From assembly GCA_001771275.1 (NCBI GenBank), contig METE01000004.1:135819-171268 (forward strand): a stretch of DNA of 35,450 nucleotides, read 5' to 3'. The DNA comes from a candidate division Kazan bacterium RIFCSPLOWO2_01_FULL_48_13. Lineage in GTDB: Bacteria; Patescibacteriota; Kazan-3B-28; UBA10110. Positions 17,511-24,917 of this stretch are shown piece by piece. Below the pieces are notes generated by a model that did not search any database, had not been told where the DNA came from, and saw nothing but the letters and a program-made list of their open reading frames with translations. The position numbers and the translations under genes are program-made. Position 1 is the stretch's first letter; the number at the start of each line of letters is the position of its first letter.

Positions 17511-18152
17511 TTACCGTTTCCGGCGCTCAAAAAATATCCAGCTCACCGCCACCACCCCTAAAATAATGGCTAACAGCAAGATCAGCCACCAGACCCAGCT
17601 TAAAACAAAATGAGTAAAACCCACTGCCAGATCGACCAGCCATTGGCCTGGCGCAGTATCAGCCAAAAACCACACTCCCACCAAAAATATCAATACTCCT
17701 ACCAATAACCCGCGCAGCAGCTGCGGATGCGATTCGCCAAAATACACCCACTCGTTGATAAATCGCTGCCACCAGCCTTTGGCTTCAAAATCACGGCCCA
17801 TTAAATCCAAAATGGCTTGTAGATAGATCGCTGTGGCATGTTCAGCCGTCTTCCGATCAATCGTAAACCCCGGCACCTCCACAATATCTTCGTAAACTTT
17901 GCGCGATTCCAATACCCCTTTTAAATTAGACAGCTGCCCTGCCACATTTTGGATTGCTTCGTGCATCGTCTCGCCAAAGCTGACAATCCCTAAGACTTCA
18001 CGGAACAATTTGTCCGCCTCGATCACCGCCATCCCGTAGGCCAGGTGATGCTTCATCGACAGCAGCCGCTCAATTCGCTTCCACTCTTTCTCGATGATGA
18101 TCTCTTCCTGATCCATCGCTTTAGTGGGCTCTTGGTCGTCCATACTATTCAA
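17511..18152 (-). CDS. conserved-looking membrane protein of unknown function (two C-terminal TM helices)
   Basis: ORF overlaps the leuS stop by 8 nt; hydrophobic stretches LLRGLLVGVLIFLVGVWFLA and VWWLILLLAIILGVVAVSWIFF. Confidence 0.75.
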   Translation of the reverse strand: MNSMDDQEPTKAMDQEEIIIEKEWKRIERLLSMKHHLAYGMAVIEADKLFREVLGIVSFGETMHEAIQNVAGQLSNLKGVLESRKVYEDIVEVPGFTIDRKTAEHATAIYLQAILDLMGRDFEAKGWWQRFINEWVYFGESHPQLLRGLLVGVLIFLVGVWFLADTAPGQWLVDLAVGFTHFVLSWVWWLILLLAIILGVVAVSWIFFERRKR

Positions 18153-20949
18153 CTATCAAATTAATAATCCGGCCTGGGACATAGTGGCTTTTAACGATCT
18201 GTTTGCCAGATAAATGAGCGGACAAAGCGGGTAGTGCTGTCGCTGCCTCTCGGATCTTGTCTTCGCTGTCGGTTGGCGATACCGATAAGACTCCCCGCAA
18301 CCGGCCATTTACCTGAACCGCTACTTTCACTAAATCTTCGATCAGCAGCGCCGGATCAAATTGCGGCCAGGCCGCCTTAAAAATACTTTGCTCATATCCT
18401 AACTTATCATAGATCTCTTCGGCGAGATGAGGCACTATGGGGGCCAGTAGCTTAACTAATTTTTCTAATGTCGGCTTGGTAATCCCCTTGGCAAAACACC
18501 GATTAACAAACTCCATCGACGAGCTGACTATCGTATTAAATTTCATCTGATCAATATCCTCGGTCACTTTTTTGATCAACTTATGAATCGCTCGATCAGT
18601 TTCGGGAGCTTTAGCCATGGGCTTTAGGCTCCAGAGCCGGTTCAAAAACCGGCGCACCCCTTCGATCCCCGCCGTGCTCCACGGCAGCGATTGATCAAAC
18701 GGACCCATAAACATTTCATACATCCTTAAGGCATCCGCCCCAAATACCTCCACCACCTCATCCGGGTTGACCACATTACCTTTGGATTTGCTCATCTTAT
18801 CTCCGTCCGCGCCCAGGATTAGTCCCTGATGCCGCAACTTCAAGAACGGCTCATCAAAATCAAGATATCCCAATTTATGCAGGACTTTTACAATAAACCG
18901 CGCATACAATAGATGGCCATTGGTATGTTCGGATCCGCCAATATAGAGATTCACCGGCATCCAATACTTTAATGATGCAGCGCTGGCAAACTCCGAGGTA
19001 TTGTGGGGATCACAATAGCGCAAGAAGTACCACGACGAGCAGACAAAGGTGTCCATTGTATCCAATTCCCGGCGCGCTCCCCGACCATATTTTTTGGCTA
19101 CCCCGGCTTGAAATTTCTTAGACAGCGCCAACGGCGATTCTCCGGTTGGCTGAAAATCAACATCCGTCGGCAACATCACCGGCAGGTCCGCCTCGTCTAC
19201 CGACACCGTTGTGTACTGACCCGCTGACCCGCTAATTTGCTTATATACTATCGGTATCGGCGCTCCCCAATATCGCTGACGAGAAATCAGCCAGTCGTGC
19301 AGTTTATATTGTACTTTTAATTCCCCACCAAACTTTTTGGCAATTTTCGCCGCCGCCTCTTTTGAGCTTTGACCATTAAACTCTTCTGAATTAATCAAAA
19401 CGCCTGTATTTGGATGAATCAACAGCTCCCTATAGAAACCATCCGCCCCCTCAGCCAACCAGCTGTAGACGTTTTCCGAAATCTCCCCTGGCTGCTCATC
19501 ATTAAAAGTCGCTCCATATCGGTCAATCAAATCATTGGTCTCTTCCGTAAGCTCCATTTCCTCCAGTCGACCATCCTTATGCTTAAAAATAAAATAAAAG
19601 CCGGCGGGGGTGCTGAATTCATTCCAAAAACCAGGCCGGATAACACCTCTGATGAATTGCTTGTATCCATCCAGCTGGTCAAAGGGTATTTCAATTTTAA
19701 AATCACCGCCGGATGTCTTGCCAACCACTTTCGCGCTAAGCTTTTTTAAATCGCTTTCATTCACCCCCATCACAAAACTGCGACTCTCCATCGTCGATTT
19801 CAATATTACTGGAATAATCGGCAGATCAAACTTCTTCGCAAATTCAAAATCTCGTTCATCGTGGGCTGGTACCGCCATAATGGCGCCCGTTCCATAATCG
19901 GTCAGCACATAGTCAGCTATCCAAATCGGGATGTCTTTACCGGTCGCCGGATTAACCGCGAAGCTTCCCGTAAATACACCTGTTTTTTCATGGGCCATCT
20001 TCCTGTCCAGCGCACTCTTTTTTTGGGTAGCGACAATATATTTATCTACCTCCGCCTTTTGTTCTGGCGTGGTCAGTTTTTCAACCAGATCATGTTCCGG
20101 CGCCAACACTAAATAGGTCGCCCCAAACAATGTGTCCGCCCGAGTCGTAAACACCTCGATTTTCCAATCGTCATGCCGAACTTGTTTCGGCATCTCGCCG
20201 TCAGATCCTGAATCAGGTTCAGGATGACAAGCGACTTGGAATTTTAAGGAAGCGCCTTCAGAGCGCCCAATCCAGTTCCGCTGTCCCATTTTGGTCGATT
20301 CTGGCCAGTCTAATTTATCCAAACCGCCGATCAGCTCGTCGGCAAAATCGGTGATCTTAAAGAACCACTGCTTTAATTTCTTCTGCTCCACTTCGGTATC
20401 ACAGCGATAGCAGCGGCCATCGATCACCTGCTCATTGGCCAGCACTGTCTGGTCCTTCGGACACCAGTTGGCATAGGCCTCTTTCTGATAGGCATAGCCG
20501 TTATCGTACAGGGTTTTAAAAATCCACTGAGTCCATTTATAATAATTTGGATCAGCGGTGCTTATCTCCCTATCCCAATCATAGGCAAACCCTAACGCCT
20601 TAACCTGCTGACTAAACCGAGCAATATTGGCTTTGGTTAATTTGGCTGGCGGCTGTCCGACCTGAATGGCATAGTTTTCGGCCGGCAGGCCAAAGGCATC
20701 CCAACCTACTGGTCTCATTACATTGAGGCCAAGCATCCGGTGGTACCGAGCGAGTATATCCGTGGCGGTATAGCCCCTGGGGTGCCCGACATGCAAACCA
20801 TCCCCCGAAGGGTAGGCAAACATATCCAAAGCATAAAACTTGGGTCGATTATCATTATCCACCGCTTTAAAAGATTGGTTGGCAGCCCAAAACTTCTGCC
20901 ATTTCCGCTCAACCTTTTGATGATTATACTTCTTGATCGCCACTTTCAT
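18145..20949 (-). CDS. leuS: leucyl-tRNA synthetase
   Basis: DMFAYPSGDGLHVGHPRGYTATDI (HIGH), KMSKSKGNVV (KMSKS); contains an in-frame palindromic repeat. Confidence 0.97.
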   Translation of the reverse strand: MKVAIKKYNHQKVERKWQKFWAANQSFKAVDNDNRPKFYALDMFAYPSGDGLHVGHPRGYTATDILARYHRMLGLNVMRPVGWDAFGLPAENYAIQVGQPPAKLTKANIARFSQQVKALGFAYDWDREISTADPNYYKWTQWIFKTLYDNGYAYQKEAYANWCPKDQTVLANEQVIDGRCYRCDTEVEQKKLKQWFFKITDFADELIGGLDKLDWPESTKMGQRNWIGRSEGASLKFQVACHPEPDSGSDGEMPKQVRHDDWKIEVFTTRADTLFGATYLVLAPEHDLVEKLTTPEQKAEVDKYIVATQKKSALDRKMAHEKTGVFTGSFAVNPATGKDIPIWIADYVLTDYGTGAIMAVPAHDERDFEFAKKFDLPIIPVILKSTMESRSFVMGVNESDLKKLSAKVVGKTSGGDFKIEIPFDQLDGYKQFIRGVIRPGFWNEFSTPAGFYFIFKHKDGRLEEMELTEETNDLIDRYGATFNDEQPGEISENVYSWLAEGADGFYRELLIHPNTGVLINSEEFNGQSSKEAAAKIAKKFGGELKVQYKLHDWLISRQRYWGAPIPIVYKQISGSAGQYTTVSVDEADLPVMLPTDVDFQPTGESPLALSKKFQAGVAKKYGRGARRELDTMDTFVCSSWYFLRYCDPHNTSEFASAASLKYWMPVNLYIGGSEHTNGHLLYARFIVKVLHKLGYLDFDEPFLKLRHQGLILGADGDKMSKSKGNVVNPDEVVEVFGADALRMYEMFMGPFDQSLPWSTAGIEGVRRFLNRLWSLKPMAKAPETDRAIHKLIKKVTEDIDQMKFNTIVSSSMEFVNRCFAKGITKPTLEKLVKLLAPIVPHLAEEIYDKLGYEQSIFKAAWPQFDPALLIEDLVKVAVQVNGRLRGVLSVSPTDSEDKIREAATALPALSAHLSGKQIVKSHYVPGRIINLIVE
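20169..20231. repeat. double-hairpin palindromic repeat inside leuS
   Basis: ATGCCGAA-CTTGT-TTCGGCAT (20173-20193) and ATCCTGAA-TCAGG-TTCAGGAT (20205-20225), outer GTCAT/ATGAC; translated as ...ACHPEPDSGSDGEMPKQVRHDD. Confidence 0.85.
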
Positions 20950-21638: not shown

Positions 21639-22295
21639 TTATACCGCCAGATCCGCTTTAATAAACGACTCCATCTTCTCGCGATAGTCGCGAAAGAGAA
21701 CGTGGATATCATAGGTAAATTGATCCGGATTGGCTGATAGTTCCCGAGCCAGAGCATCTAAGGTATAGAGCAGAACCCCCTTAGCTTCTCGGTCAACGGT
21801 TTTAATCGCCCCACCGTACAAACCAAAGAAAAGGTGGACCTTGTTAGCAATAACAACCTTCTCGCCATTAATGACCTTTTCCGAGTTGAATATGCGTACA
21901 CCCACCTGCTTCACTAGGGCAATGGTACTAAGATGGCTCCTTAAAAGCTGATGCGTTTTACGAAAATCTTCATCAGTACGCAAAACAATCGACGGGACCT
22001 GTAGCTCTTGGACAGTTTCGACCATGACCGAGTAGTCATCCGAATCTCCATATTGGATATGCCCACCAATCGATTTGTCCATCAGCCCGGCATTATGGAA
22101 CTTGGTGTCGGATCGCTTTTGGAGATATATCTCCCCCTTTTCGTCAAACATCAAAATGGCAATAATACCAACAGCCCTAGTCGGCTCGCCCGTCTCTTTA
22201 AAAGCCTTAATCTGCTCAGCATAAAACTCGCCGCGATCCATCGGGATATCGACACCGGGGTTGTTGAGCATATAAGTAGTAACGATCTCGCTCAT
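21639..22295 (-). CDS. Nudix hydrolase-like protein with degenerate Nudix box
   Basis: RAVGIIAILMFDEKGEIYLQKRSDTKFHNAGLMDKSIGGHIQYGDSDDYSVMVETVQELQV resembles a Nudix fold, but the REUxEExGU motif is incomplete. Confidence 0.7.
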   Translation of the reverse strand: MSEIVTTYMLNNPGVDIPMDRGEFYAEQIKAFKETGEPTRAVGIIAILMFDEKGEIYLQKRSDTKFHNAGLMDKSIGGHIQYGDSDDYSVMVETVQELQVPSIVLRTDEDFRKTHQLLRSHLSTIALVKQVGVRIFNSEKVINGEKVVIANKVHLFFGLYGGAIKTVDREAKGVLLYTLDALARELSANPDQFTYDIHVLFRDYREKMESFIKADLAV

Positions 22296-22309
22296 GGGAT
22301 GATATTTTC

Positions 22310-22385
22310 TGGTGGACCGTACCGGGATCGAACCGGTTACCTCCGCACTGCCAGCGCGGCGCTCTACCAGGTGAGCTAACGGCCC
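22310..22385 (-). tRNA. tRNA-Ala (anticodon GGC), CCA encoded
   Basis: Minus strand GGGCCGT...ACGGTCC acceptor stem, anticodon arm CCGCG-CTGGCAG-TGCGG, GGTTCGATCC T-arm, ACCA end. Confidence 0.95.
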
Positions 22386-23075
22386 TTATTGGACTATTTC
22401 AGGCAGAACCTTAGTAGCTTGGATTATATCGTTTAATATGTCTGCAGAGAAGTATGTAATCCTACAAACCCCTTTATATTCTTTCTTTAAAGTCGGTTTC
22501 CCAATAGTTCTGGGATCAATTTGAGCATTATAGAAAAGTTCTCTTCTTATGCCTGTGACTTTTCTCCAGAACTTCTCCAGAGCTTTAATATCACTGTCTG
22601 CTCTGCATTGTAGAGTAACCCGAAATTTATTTTCATCAACTGCATAGCATCCCCTTAATGCGGACAAAAACACCCTAATTACGCCTGGATCGGAATTACC
22701 GAAGTCCACAGACCCTCTCATAGTTTTACTTCCTTCCGCCCAGTAGAGACTGACCAAAAGTAGTTTATAAAAAATTGGGGAATCGCTGATTATGTTAAAA
22801 AATGTGCGATTCTTGTCCTTCAGTTCTTCAGCTTTTACGGCAGTTTGCTCTTTCTTCAGTGTGGCAGACTTTATTCTCGCTTTAGCCAGGCCTTCATTGG
22901 CAAGGACACTAATTCTACGATAATATTCATCACTCATTGGGATACTGCGCAGCCAGTAGTTTAATGTACTCTTGGGTATAGAAACCCCAAGTTCCTTGGA
23001 TATCTCTGCATAGGTCACCCCTCGTGCTCGCAGACTAATGGCACGGTCACGGATTGTAGATGAAGTTCTTTTCAC
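22386..23075 (-). CDS. HTH protein with LAGLIDADG-like C-terminal domain (homing-endonuclease-related candidate)
   Basis: N-terminal HTH SLRARGVTYAEISKELGVSIPKSTLNYWL; C-terminal LLLVSLYWAEGSKTMRGSVDFGNSDPGVIRVFLSALRGC. Confidence 0.65.
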   Translation of the reverse strand: MKRTSSTIRDRAISLRARGVTYAEISKELGVSIPKSTLNYWLRSIPMSDEYYRRISVLANEGLAKARIKSATLKKEQTAVKAEELKDKNRTFFNIISDSPIFYKLLLVSLYWAEGSKTMRGSVDFGNSDPGVIRVFLSALRGCYAVDENKFRVTLQCRADSDIKALEKFWRKVTGIRRELFYNAQIDPRTIGKPTLKKEYKGVCRITYFSADILNDIIQATKVLPEIVQ

Positions 23076-23119
23076 CCCCTAATTGTACCACAGACAGCCA
23101 CTATGGGGCGACCCTCTAA

Positions 23120-23506
23120 CTAAATCTTTAAATTCCGGGAGAAGAGATGTAGGATCGGCAATTGCTTTTCCACCCCCTTCACGGCAAAGTATACTCCCAC
23201 GCCGCTAATGCCAGCAAAGCCAAGCCAAGCCAATTTGCTCAGCCATTGCATCAGAGTTAATGCGCCAAAAGAGAACACTGAAGTCAGAAAAGCATCCACC
23301 AACCAGAGAATCACCATCACCACCACCTCGGCCAGAAATAATGTTACGCCCTGGCGGACATGGAACATTACAAATTTATCTTCCCGCTTAGCCACCCACG
23401 GTACTACGAATAGGATAGATAAGTAGCTCAACCCGGCAAAGACACGAGTGTCCAACTCCAGCGAGCTAACCGACTGATTAGGATTCTGTTCTTCCATACT
23501 TTCCAT
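23120..23506 (-). CDS. Tic20/DUF4870-like small membrane protein
   Basis: AGLSYLSILFVVPWVAKREDKFVMFHVRQGVTLFLAEVVV; start ambiguous (ATG at 23506 or 23497). Confidence 0.75.
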   Translation of the reverse strand: MESMEEQNPNQSVSSLELDTRVFAGLSYLSILFVVPWVAKREDKFVMFHVRQGVTLFLAEVVVMVILWLVDAFLTSVFSFGALTLMQWLSKLAWLGFAGISGVGVYFAVKGVEKQLPILHLFSRNLKI

Positions 23507-24917
23507 TATAGTCTGAATTAACCCATAAGACACCCACCAAACTAAGCCCTAACATAAACATTAATCGACCACTTGGCAAGGTCCACCAGTAGTGATCCAC
23601 TAAACCGATCACAGCTATTGTCACCGTCGCCCATAATCCCGCCACCCCCCACAACCGGCCCCGCCGCCCCAGCCGAACAGCCAAATAAGCGGCAGCCCCC
23701 AAGATCCACATTAATAATCCCAACCCCACTGGCCCCAGCTCGGCCAAGGCCAGCAGATAGATATTATGAACTGGTTGATAGTAGTTAAGACTACGATCGG
23801 TAGAATAGCTCCACCCACCTAAATCTGATCGGTACTGCCAGCTGTCTGCCTGACCGGTCCCAACGGGATTCCCGGGGAGCTGCCCTCCGGGCAAGAGTGC
23901 CCTCCCGGCCGGCTGCCAGATATTTAAAAAGTATTGGCCGATCCCCGTCCCGGTTACCGAATAGTTGGCATATACTTTTTTAAACTCCTGCCATTGTTCC
24001 TGCCGCGAACGCACGGATATCTGCTCGATCAAATTGGAATCAGCGCTCCAGCGCGGTACGACCGCCTGCCACTGGGTCAGCGCCACAATAACTACCGCTA
24101 AAATAATCGGCCAGCCGATCCGCAGGCTCTGCCGCAACCGAGCGGAATGTTTAAGCGCCAGCCAAATTAAAACCACCAGGCCACCGCCGATCAATGCCGC
24201 CCCAGCGCTGCGGGATAAAGATAGGATTAATCCAATTAGACCGATACCAGCGACCCACCACCAACTTAATCGGTTAATTAATCGACCACGATCAAACAGC
24301 AGGGGCCACATCATCGCCAAACCCATCACCAAATACCCGCCCAATACATTAGCGTGCGGCAGCGTGCCGTGCGCCCGCAACTGCCTGGCCCCATCGATCA
24401 ACACTACCGGGATGCCGGACTGGATTGGGTCCAACACCGATTCGCCCAACCATTTTAACCCTAAAGAGTGATTGGTAAAATACTGAGCGATCGCTAATCC
24501 GCTCTGAACCACCATCCCAGCCATCAGCGGATAAAGCAGCGCTTTAATATCAGCCACTCGATTGATCAAGTAAAAATAAAATCCGACATATAATAAAAAC
24601 CTCAGCGCCGCTTGAACACCCATCCATACATCGGGTTTGGCCCAGACCAACGACAGACACATCCATCCGGCCAGCAGCAGCAAAGGCAGGGTTAGACATT
24701 TGGGTCCCCAATTAAATCGACCAGTCCGTTTAAAATCCATCGCCCACAACAGTAGCAGTCCACCGATCAGCAAATCGCTTAAGAATAAACTGGTGGAGGC
24801 ATAGTCGACAAAAACGCCCTGATGAAAAACCGGGGCGATTACTTTGCGGACAGAGAACGGAATCGCAAATATGGTCAGCCACAGCCACCACTGATTAATC
24901 TTCTGCCAAAAGTTCAC
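23478..24917 (-). CDS. O-antigen ligase/polymerase-like polytopic membrane protein
   Basis: Many TM segments; LILSLSRSAGAALIGGGLVVL, GTGIGQYFLNIW and VHNIYLLALAELGPVGLGLLMW are typical Wzy_C-like motifs. Confidence 0.85.
   Translation of the reverse strand: MNFWQKINQWWLWLTIFAIPFSVRKVIAPVFHQGVFVDYASTSLFLSDLLIGGLLLLWAMDFKRTGRFNWGPKCLTLPLLLLAGWMCLSLVWAKPDVWMGVQAALRFLLYVGFYFYLINRVADIKALLYPLMAGMVVQSGLAIAQYFTNHSLGLKWLGESVLDPIQSGIPVVLIDGARQLRAHGTLPHANVLGGYLVMGLAMMWPLLFDRGRLINRLSWWWVAGIGLIGLILSLSRSAGAALIGGGLVVLIWLALKHSARLRQSLRIGWPIILAVVIVALTQWQAVVPRWSADSNLIEQISVRSRQEQWQEFKKVYANYSVTGTGIGQYFLNIWQPAGRALLPGGQLPGNPVGTGQADSWQYRSDLGGWSYSTDRSLNYYQPVHNIYLLALAELGPVGLGLLMWILGAAAYLAVRLGRRGRLWGVAGLWATVTIAVIGLVDHYWWTLPSGRLMFMLGLSLVGVLWVNSDYNGKYGRTES

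Follow-up and report, generated by a model that had tools for sequence, protein, structure and literature searches.

The locus

The window, by which we mean the whole stretch of 35,450 nucleotides that was analysed, comes from a genome of 0.79 Mb (97% complete) and carries on its minus strand a free-standing ORF of 229 aa (22386–23075; GTG start, TAA stop), a putative homing endonuclease gene (HEG). Its TAA occupies 22388–22386 and an intact tRNA-Ala(GGC) gene, identified by ARAGORN and Rfam with its CCA encoded, runs on the same strand from 22385 to 22310, so that the spacer between the two is 0 nt. This tRNA gene has no intron and is the sole Ala(GGC) copy among the 46 tRNA genes of the genome. 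A Nudix-like gene (21639–22295, minus strand; Pfam NUDIX 23.4 bits against a cut-off of 21.1) starts 14 nt past the encoded CCA, its ATG lying at 22295. The contact between stop codon and tRNA, the encoded CCA at 22310 and the distance to the Nudix ATG had all been given in the preliminary description of this DNA, and its coordinates are right to the base.

On its 5' side the ORF is preceded by the 44-bp leader of the inserted segment (23076–23119, minus strand) and then by a membrane-protein gene (23120–23533, minus strand). The sequence TACAAT at 23087–23082 in the leader, 6 nt ahead of the GTG, is a possible −10 box; the promoter scan of the window locus did not pick it up. Elsewhere in the window, the LeuRS gene (18145–20949) contains an in-frame palindromic insert at 20155–20229 that encodes CHPEPDSGSDGEMPKQVRHDDW, in the manner of the palindromic repeats found within coding sequences elsewhere among bacteria; no further copy of it was found within the window.

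A helix-turn-helix joined to a LAGLIDADG-like domain

The N-terminus of the protein, about residues 3–45 (22941–23069, minus strand), is a helix-turn-helix (HTH), as had been proposed: the window protein gives a weak match to Pfam HTH_23, the match is clear in relatives and present in 71/115 family members, and the AlphaFold2 (AF2) model places helices at residues 3–17, 22–29 and 35–42.

The C-terminal domain carries the putative active-site motif LYWAEGSK (residues 110–117; 22725–22748, minus strand), in which LYWAEG has the acidic residue followed by Gly that characterizes LAGLIDADG motifs. A profile of the family matches I-DmoI with E=9.6e-5 (E=0.0082 for the C-terminal domain alone). The match covers the second LAGLIDADG half of I-DmoI, with LYWAEGSK aligned to LYVAEGDK and the following NSDP..I..FL..L aligned to the next I-DmoI segment. 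Glu114 and Lys117 of the window protein thereby align with Glu117 and Lys120 of I-DmoI, which are catalytic in that enzyme, and these positions are conserved throughout the family (Glu114 in 113/115 members, Lys117 in 104/115, and the intervening Gly115 in 112/115).

Searches with the window protein against Pfam, NCBIfam, PHROGs, PADLOC and, as a single sequence, the PDB gave weak, mostly HTH matches, and the Pfam families listed for the 115 members include no LAGLIDADG model. The AF2 models have pLDDT 93–95 and show the order helix (bearing the motif), strand, helix, strand, extra helix, strand, helix, which we compared with the alpha-beta-beta-alpha-beta-beta-alpha saddle of LAGLIDADG proteins. 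The first 50 PDB matches from Foldseek, with either the whole model or the domain, included no LAGLIDADG enzyme, the best being the OmpA-like protein YfiB (TM 0.3–0.4); against a viral library a homing endonuclease ranked first, as a weak match (prob 0.98, TM 0.26). The LAGLIDADG resemblance noted earlier is thus upheld by the family profile but not by Pfam or the fold search. Since neither Pfam nor the Foldseek PDB top 50 yields a LAGLIDADG protein, we call the domain LAGLIDADG-like; we treat membership of the LAGLIDADG family as probable.

Insertion and empty alleles

Comparison of tRNA-Ala loci between sister genomes reveals an allele without the ORF in a congener (G001), where the membrane-protein gene ends 5 bp before an intact tRNA-Ala and so marks the empty site. 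The O-antigen-ligase gene, the membrane-protein gene and the tRNA follow one another there as they do in the window, at 72% identity, and the window differs in carrying 44 bp plus the 690-bp ORF between the membrane-protein gene and tRNA-Ala(GGC). Neither direct nor terminal repeats were found at the window insertion. At a tRNA-Gln locus of another genus, marked by a constant upstream gene, two alleles are occupied, one retains a 3' HEG remnant and about 14 are empty. The gene therefore shows the traits of a free-standing HEG, in that it lies outside introns and inteins, is inserted precisely beside its proposed target and is absent from alleles of relatives. The G+C content of the ORF is 0.41, against 0.50 for the window, and is likewise below that of the flanks in 101/105 relatives.

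Family copies broken by internal stops occur at L014/L016 (G035 C1, about 769465–770071) and L074, one still at its tRNA-Gln and one at a site without a tRNA; their reading frames mark decay of the element. In genus g163, two loci (L166 and L173) have about 36 bp at and after tRNA-Gln that are 97–100% identical to L121 and differ in the remainder, which suggests that a small element, either conserved or repeated, adjoins tRNA-Gln.

The Nudix-like gene lies outside the element. The preliminary description had offered, as one of two readings, an operon with an embedded tRNA that included this gene. None of the eight nearest relatives searched yielded it, however, the sister genome carries other DNA at its position, and the order ORF–tRNA–Nudix is not kept across distant relatives. 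Not being conserved, the Nudix gene is ruled out as a partner of the ORF and is a bystander.

A family that abuts tRNA genes

Homologues of the window protein were found in 10/59 relatives. A Candidatus Kaiserbacteria locus is related through this protein, and on that ground the genome of the window is treated as a member of the CPR/Patescibacteria. A search with a 16-sequence profile detected the family in 109/380 genomes of the phylum (29%). More than 100 family loci were retrieved, and 115 full-length members were analysed. A same-strand tRNA gene lies directly 3' of the ORF in 104 of these 115. The tRNA starts between −25 and +40 nt from the ORF stop in 98/115 members, compared with 13/322 control ORFs (p=2.8e-64); the controls are the other ORFs of the same loci, which makes the comparison conservative because those loci are already tRNA-rich. 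The abutment seen at the window is therefore far beyond chance. Four further members (five with L096) are divergent from their tRNA and likewise sit at its 5' side, and seven have no nearby tRNA matching the pattern.

The spacing met most often, in 28 members, is −10, at which the stop is a conserved TAG at tRNA positions 8–10, and overall the ORF overlaps the tRNA in 48 of the 104 members with a downstream tRNA. In L054 and two others (gap −84 to −98) the ORF reads through the entire downstream tRNA before its stop. The adjoining tRNAs represent 19 anticodon identities. An ORF–tRNA pair that recurs throughout a phylum with 19 different anticodons is the pattern of a mobile element rather than of ordinary synteny. 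The window ORF is one of many genes, probably selfish and DNA-cutting, that make up this extensive and undescribed family in the small genomes of CPR/Patescibacteria. One genome of 0.6 Mb (G079) holds seven family members (L028, L091, L098, L102 and L119 among them), several of which lie at different isotypes. The family proteins that were tried had no match in phage and plasmid collections, and matches on viral contigs were limited to 22-residue HTH fragments.

In a maximum-likelihood tree of the 115 full-length proteins, tRNA isotype requires 21 parsimony changes for 19 states, compared with a mean of 83 and a minimum of 75 for shuffled labels, whereas host family requires 102 changes, against 101.7 when shuffled. 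All 12 Ala(GGC) members, all 12 Thr(GGT), 13 Ile(TAT), 7 Trp and 7 Lys(CTT) form groups, as do the Met, Asn, Gln and other isotypes, and the window protein belongs to the Ala(GGC) lineage. The tree follows isotype and not host; the protein therefore passes between unrelated hosts while keeping its tRNA. Such sporadic spread tied to one target gene is a further trait of free-standing HEGs. Two loci from different host families, L003 and L069, have an unusual tRNA-Ala(GGC) that is 99% identical between them, each adjoining a family gene. Such identity is expected if tRNA and HEG travel together, and joint transfer is likely on this similarity.

Altered anticodon arms and introns in the adjoining tRNAs

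The anticodon arm of the window tRNA, CCGCGCTGGCAGTGCGG (22343–22359, minus strand), differs from that of the sister genome, CCTCCATGGCATGGAGG. Within the order to which the window belongs, all HEG-less tRNA-Ala genes seen carry CCATGGCATGG while the window carries CGCTGGCAGTG. Across the family, CATGGCATG is present in 2/12 HEG-bearing tRNA-Ala(GGC) genes compared with 21/25 HEG-less ones, and CCATGGTAA in 1/6 HEG-bearing intronless tRNA-Thr(GGT) genes compared with 71/79 HEG-less ones (p about 1e-4 and 2e-4, respectively, for motifs picked after inspection of the sequences and counts that include relatives, which are not independent). The intron-bearing tRNA-Thr(GGT) alleles keep CCATGGT in 5/5 cases. 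The arm contrast is tempered by the greater divergence of HEG-bearing tRNA-Ala genes as a whole, which exceeds that of HEG-less ones in the rest of the tRNA (0.13 versus 0.07) as well as in the arm (0.42 versus 0.19). Four members (L036, L054, L062 and L063) are exceptions that keep the common arm. Among the 57 control loci fetched by pattern, four contain family genes; two of these are tRNA-Ala loci that the tally above includes on the HEG-bearing side, and in the other two the family gene does not abut the control tRNA. For tRNA-Ile(TAT) the anticodon stems of HEG-less genomes are too variable to give a consensus arm, and the pattern search for tRNA-Gly returned one site. These contrasts lend moderate support to the view that the arm changes may serve as self-protection of HEG-bearing alleles.

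An intron interrupts the adjoining tRNA in about 15 relatives. An Rfam group I intron (RF00028) occupies the anticodon loop in L005, L032, L035, L041, L043, L045 and L046, and RF00028 is also found in the tRNA of the divergent arrangements L096 and L098. In L009, L065, L066, L095 and L112 a conserved insert splits tRNA-Thr(GGT) just past the anticodon, between positions 36 and 37. It is about 190 nt long, has a common predicted structure and group-I-like segments, matches no Rfam family with the threshold relaxed to E 0.01, and is perhaps an undescribed group I subtype. The tRNA-Phe of L040 is split in the same manner, again with no Rfam match. At about 190–290 nt, these introns could not accommodate an endonuclease gene as long as those of this family. 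An ORF-less intron within the target and a free-standing HEG beside it make up the layout of collaborative homing, which is seen in about 15 relatives and not at the window. About 87% of members adjoin intronless tRNAs, and the intron-bearing ones are nested within few isotype clades (8 changes on the tree).

A model for homing into tRNA genes

We consider it likely that the ORF is a free-standing, isotype-specific HEG of a family that joins an HTH to a single-motif LAGLIDADG-like domain and parasitizes tRNA genes. A homing-type element set against a tRNA had been suggested from the outset, and this is supported by the empty sister site, the family-wide abutment, the isotype-sorted and host-independent tree, and the I-DmoI profile match with Glu and Lys kept. 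The emphasis shifts, the tRNA gene being the probable target and the Nudix gene incidental; of the two readings first offered, the homing one is supported and the operon one is not.

The target is probably the anticodon arm of the tRNA gene, judging from the arm comparisons; in DNA this arm is an inverted repeat and therefore suits a one-motif enzyme acting as a dimer. We infer a cycle in which a homodimer would recognize the arm and cut it in HEG-less tRNA alleles of its own isotype. Recombination repair from the HEG-bearing copy would then transfer the HEG together with the flanking tRNA, either resistant or intron-bearing, with the end of the HEG some 30–40 bp from the proposed cut. If the enzyme cuts the arm, carrier alleles must resist it, and two escape routes may be available: a changed arm, as proposed for the window and for most intronless tRNA-Ala and tRNA-Thr cases, and an intron in the anticodon loop, as in about 15 relatives, where the arrangement would amount to collaborative homing. 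Tight linkage to a single-copy tRNA gene would also be expected to hinder loss of the HEG.

A more far-reaching form of the model, which we regard as doubtful, holds that about 19 isotype-locked lineages use the inverted repeat of the arm as a dimer target and that, in the overlapping half, production of the nuclease is coupled to maturation of the tRNA. At the window locus, cleavage by RNase P would leave the TAA in place, and in 48/104 relatives, where the stop lies within or past the 5' end of the tRNA, it would remove the stop of the ORF. Maturation of the tRNA and completion of the nuclease would then exclude each other, and this exclusion would limit a potentially lethal enzyme.

Alternatively, the protein could be a domesticated regulator similar to WhiA, in which a LAGLIDADG-type fold is joined to an HTH; it would bind the neighbouring tRNA gene or the region upstream of it and control its transcription, with the adjacency reflecting local autoregulation. 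In WhiA/DUF199 a fold of the LAGLIDADG type has been recruited for transcriptional control (PMC3984707), and the HTH of the family and its co-directional position immediately upstream of the tRNA would suit such a role. We nevertheless find this unlikely: a regulator would not be expected in only 29% of genomes on a tree devoid of host signal, at low G+C and in several copies in some genomes, nor at a locus that is occupied in some genomes, empty in others and reduced to a remnant in one, and it would have no need of the catalytic Glu that 113/115 members keep.

An RNA-acting maturase or tRNA-binding protein, aiding the splicing or folding of a pre-tRNA encoded on its own transcript, is less probable again. 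LAGLIDADG maturases that assist group I introns are known (PMC3984707), isotype specificity fits RNA recognition equally well, and the introns of about 15 relatives would provide a substrate; however, about 87% of members, the window included, sit at intronless tRNAs, the intron-bearing members are confined to few clades, and the N-terminal HTH suggests DNA as the ligand. We give still less weight to a toxin or defence nuclease that attacks tRNA or invaders and is retained next to a resistant form of the tRNA. The changed arms and the single branch of the family per isotype could be read as resistant copies and their matching nucleases, but the genome has no other Ala(GGC) gene that could act as the sensitive copy, PADLOC gave no convincing match (best E 0.012), and the DNA-nuclease motif, the HTH and the intron-bearing alleles do not fit. 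Three further readings are hardly credible: chance abutment in a compact genome, vertically inherited gene order, and an integrase-type island, for which tRNA genes are common insertion sites. Against them stand the abutment statistics, the isotype-sorted and host-independent tree, the empty sister site, and an insert that consists of one ORF and lies at the tRNA 5' end instead of the 3' end; an integrase-type element, with its integrase and attL/attR usually at the tRNA 3' end, was rejected since neither integrase nor direct repeats are present.

Relationship to known systems

The free-standing HEG proposed here resembles I-DmoI and other LAGLIDADG enzymes in the profile match and the catalytic Glu and Lys. 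It differs in having one motif per chain where I-DmoI has two, in its N-terminal HTH, in the greater length of the insert that separates the last strands, in being encoded outside introns, and in that its LAGLIDADG likeness is seen by profile and not by global fold search. I-Ssp6803I, of the PD-(D/E)xK class, is encoded inside a group I intron, whereas the window gene lies outside and upstream of its tRNA. I-Ssp6803I is known as the endonuclease of the Synechocystis tRNA-fMet intron (Bonocora and Shub 2001, as cited in PMC3984707). T4 SegB is a free-standing endonuclease located between tRNA genes that homes into the tRNA region (PMC2988022), but it is a GIY-YIG nuclease confined to one phage locus; the window family consists of LAGLIDADG-like HTH proteins on bacterial chromosomes, with one clade per isotype, that abut or overlap their tRNAs.

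Collaborative homing, in which a free-standing HEG and an ORF-less group I intron converge on one site, is known from phage (PMC3984707), whereas the candidate pairs in the relatives sit at chromosomal tRNA genes. Insertions in CPR rRNA genes carry LAGLIDADG endonucleases (PMC11270868, in which tRNA is not mentioned); these share phylum and nuclease class with the window family and are located inside the rRNA-gene insertions. We found no description of a free-standing, isotype-sorted HEG family at tRNA genes in the literature searched, which was mostly freely accessible.

Implications

ORFs that overlap a tRNA gene recur in this family and, if our interpretation is true, it would account for some CPR tRNA genes being interrupted or preceded by odd ORFs. 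The family would provide naturally occurring, related endonucleases whose palindromic targets can be read from the sequence, of use for work on specificity, as well as candidate collaborative-homing pairs with and without an intron in cellular genomes, through which the question of how introns and endonucleases join would become directly testable. The tRNA genes of reduced-genome bacteria would then be host to a large, unrecognized guild of selfish genes, with roughly one lineage per isotype, that shapes both the sequence of tRNAs, through changed anticodon arms, and their introns.
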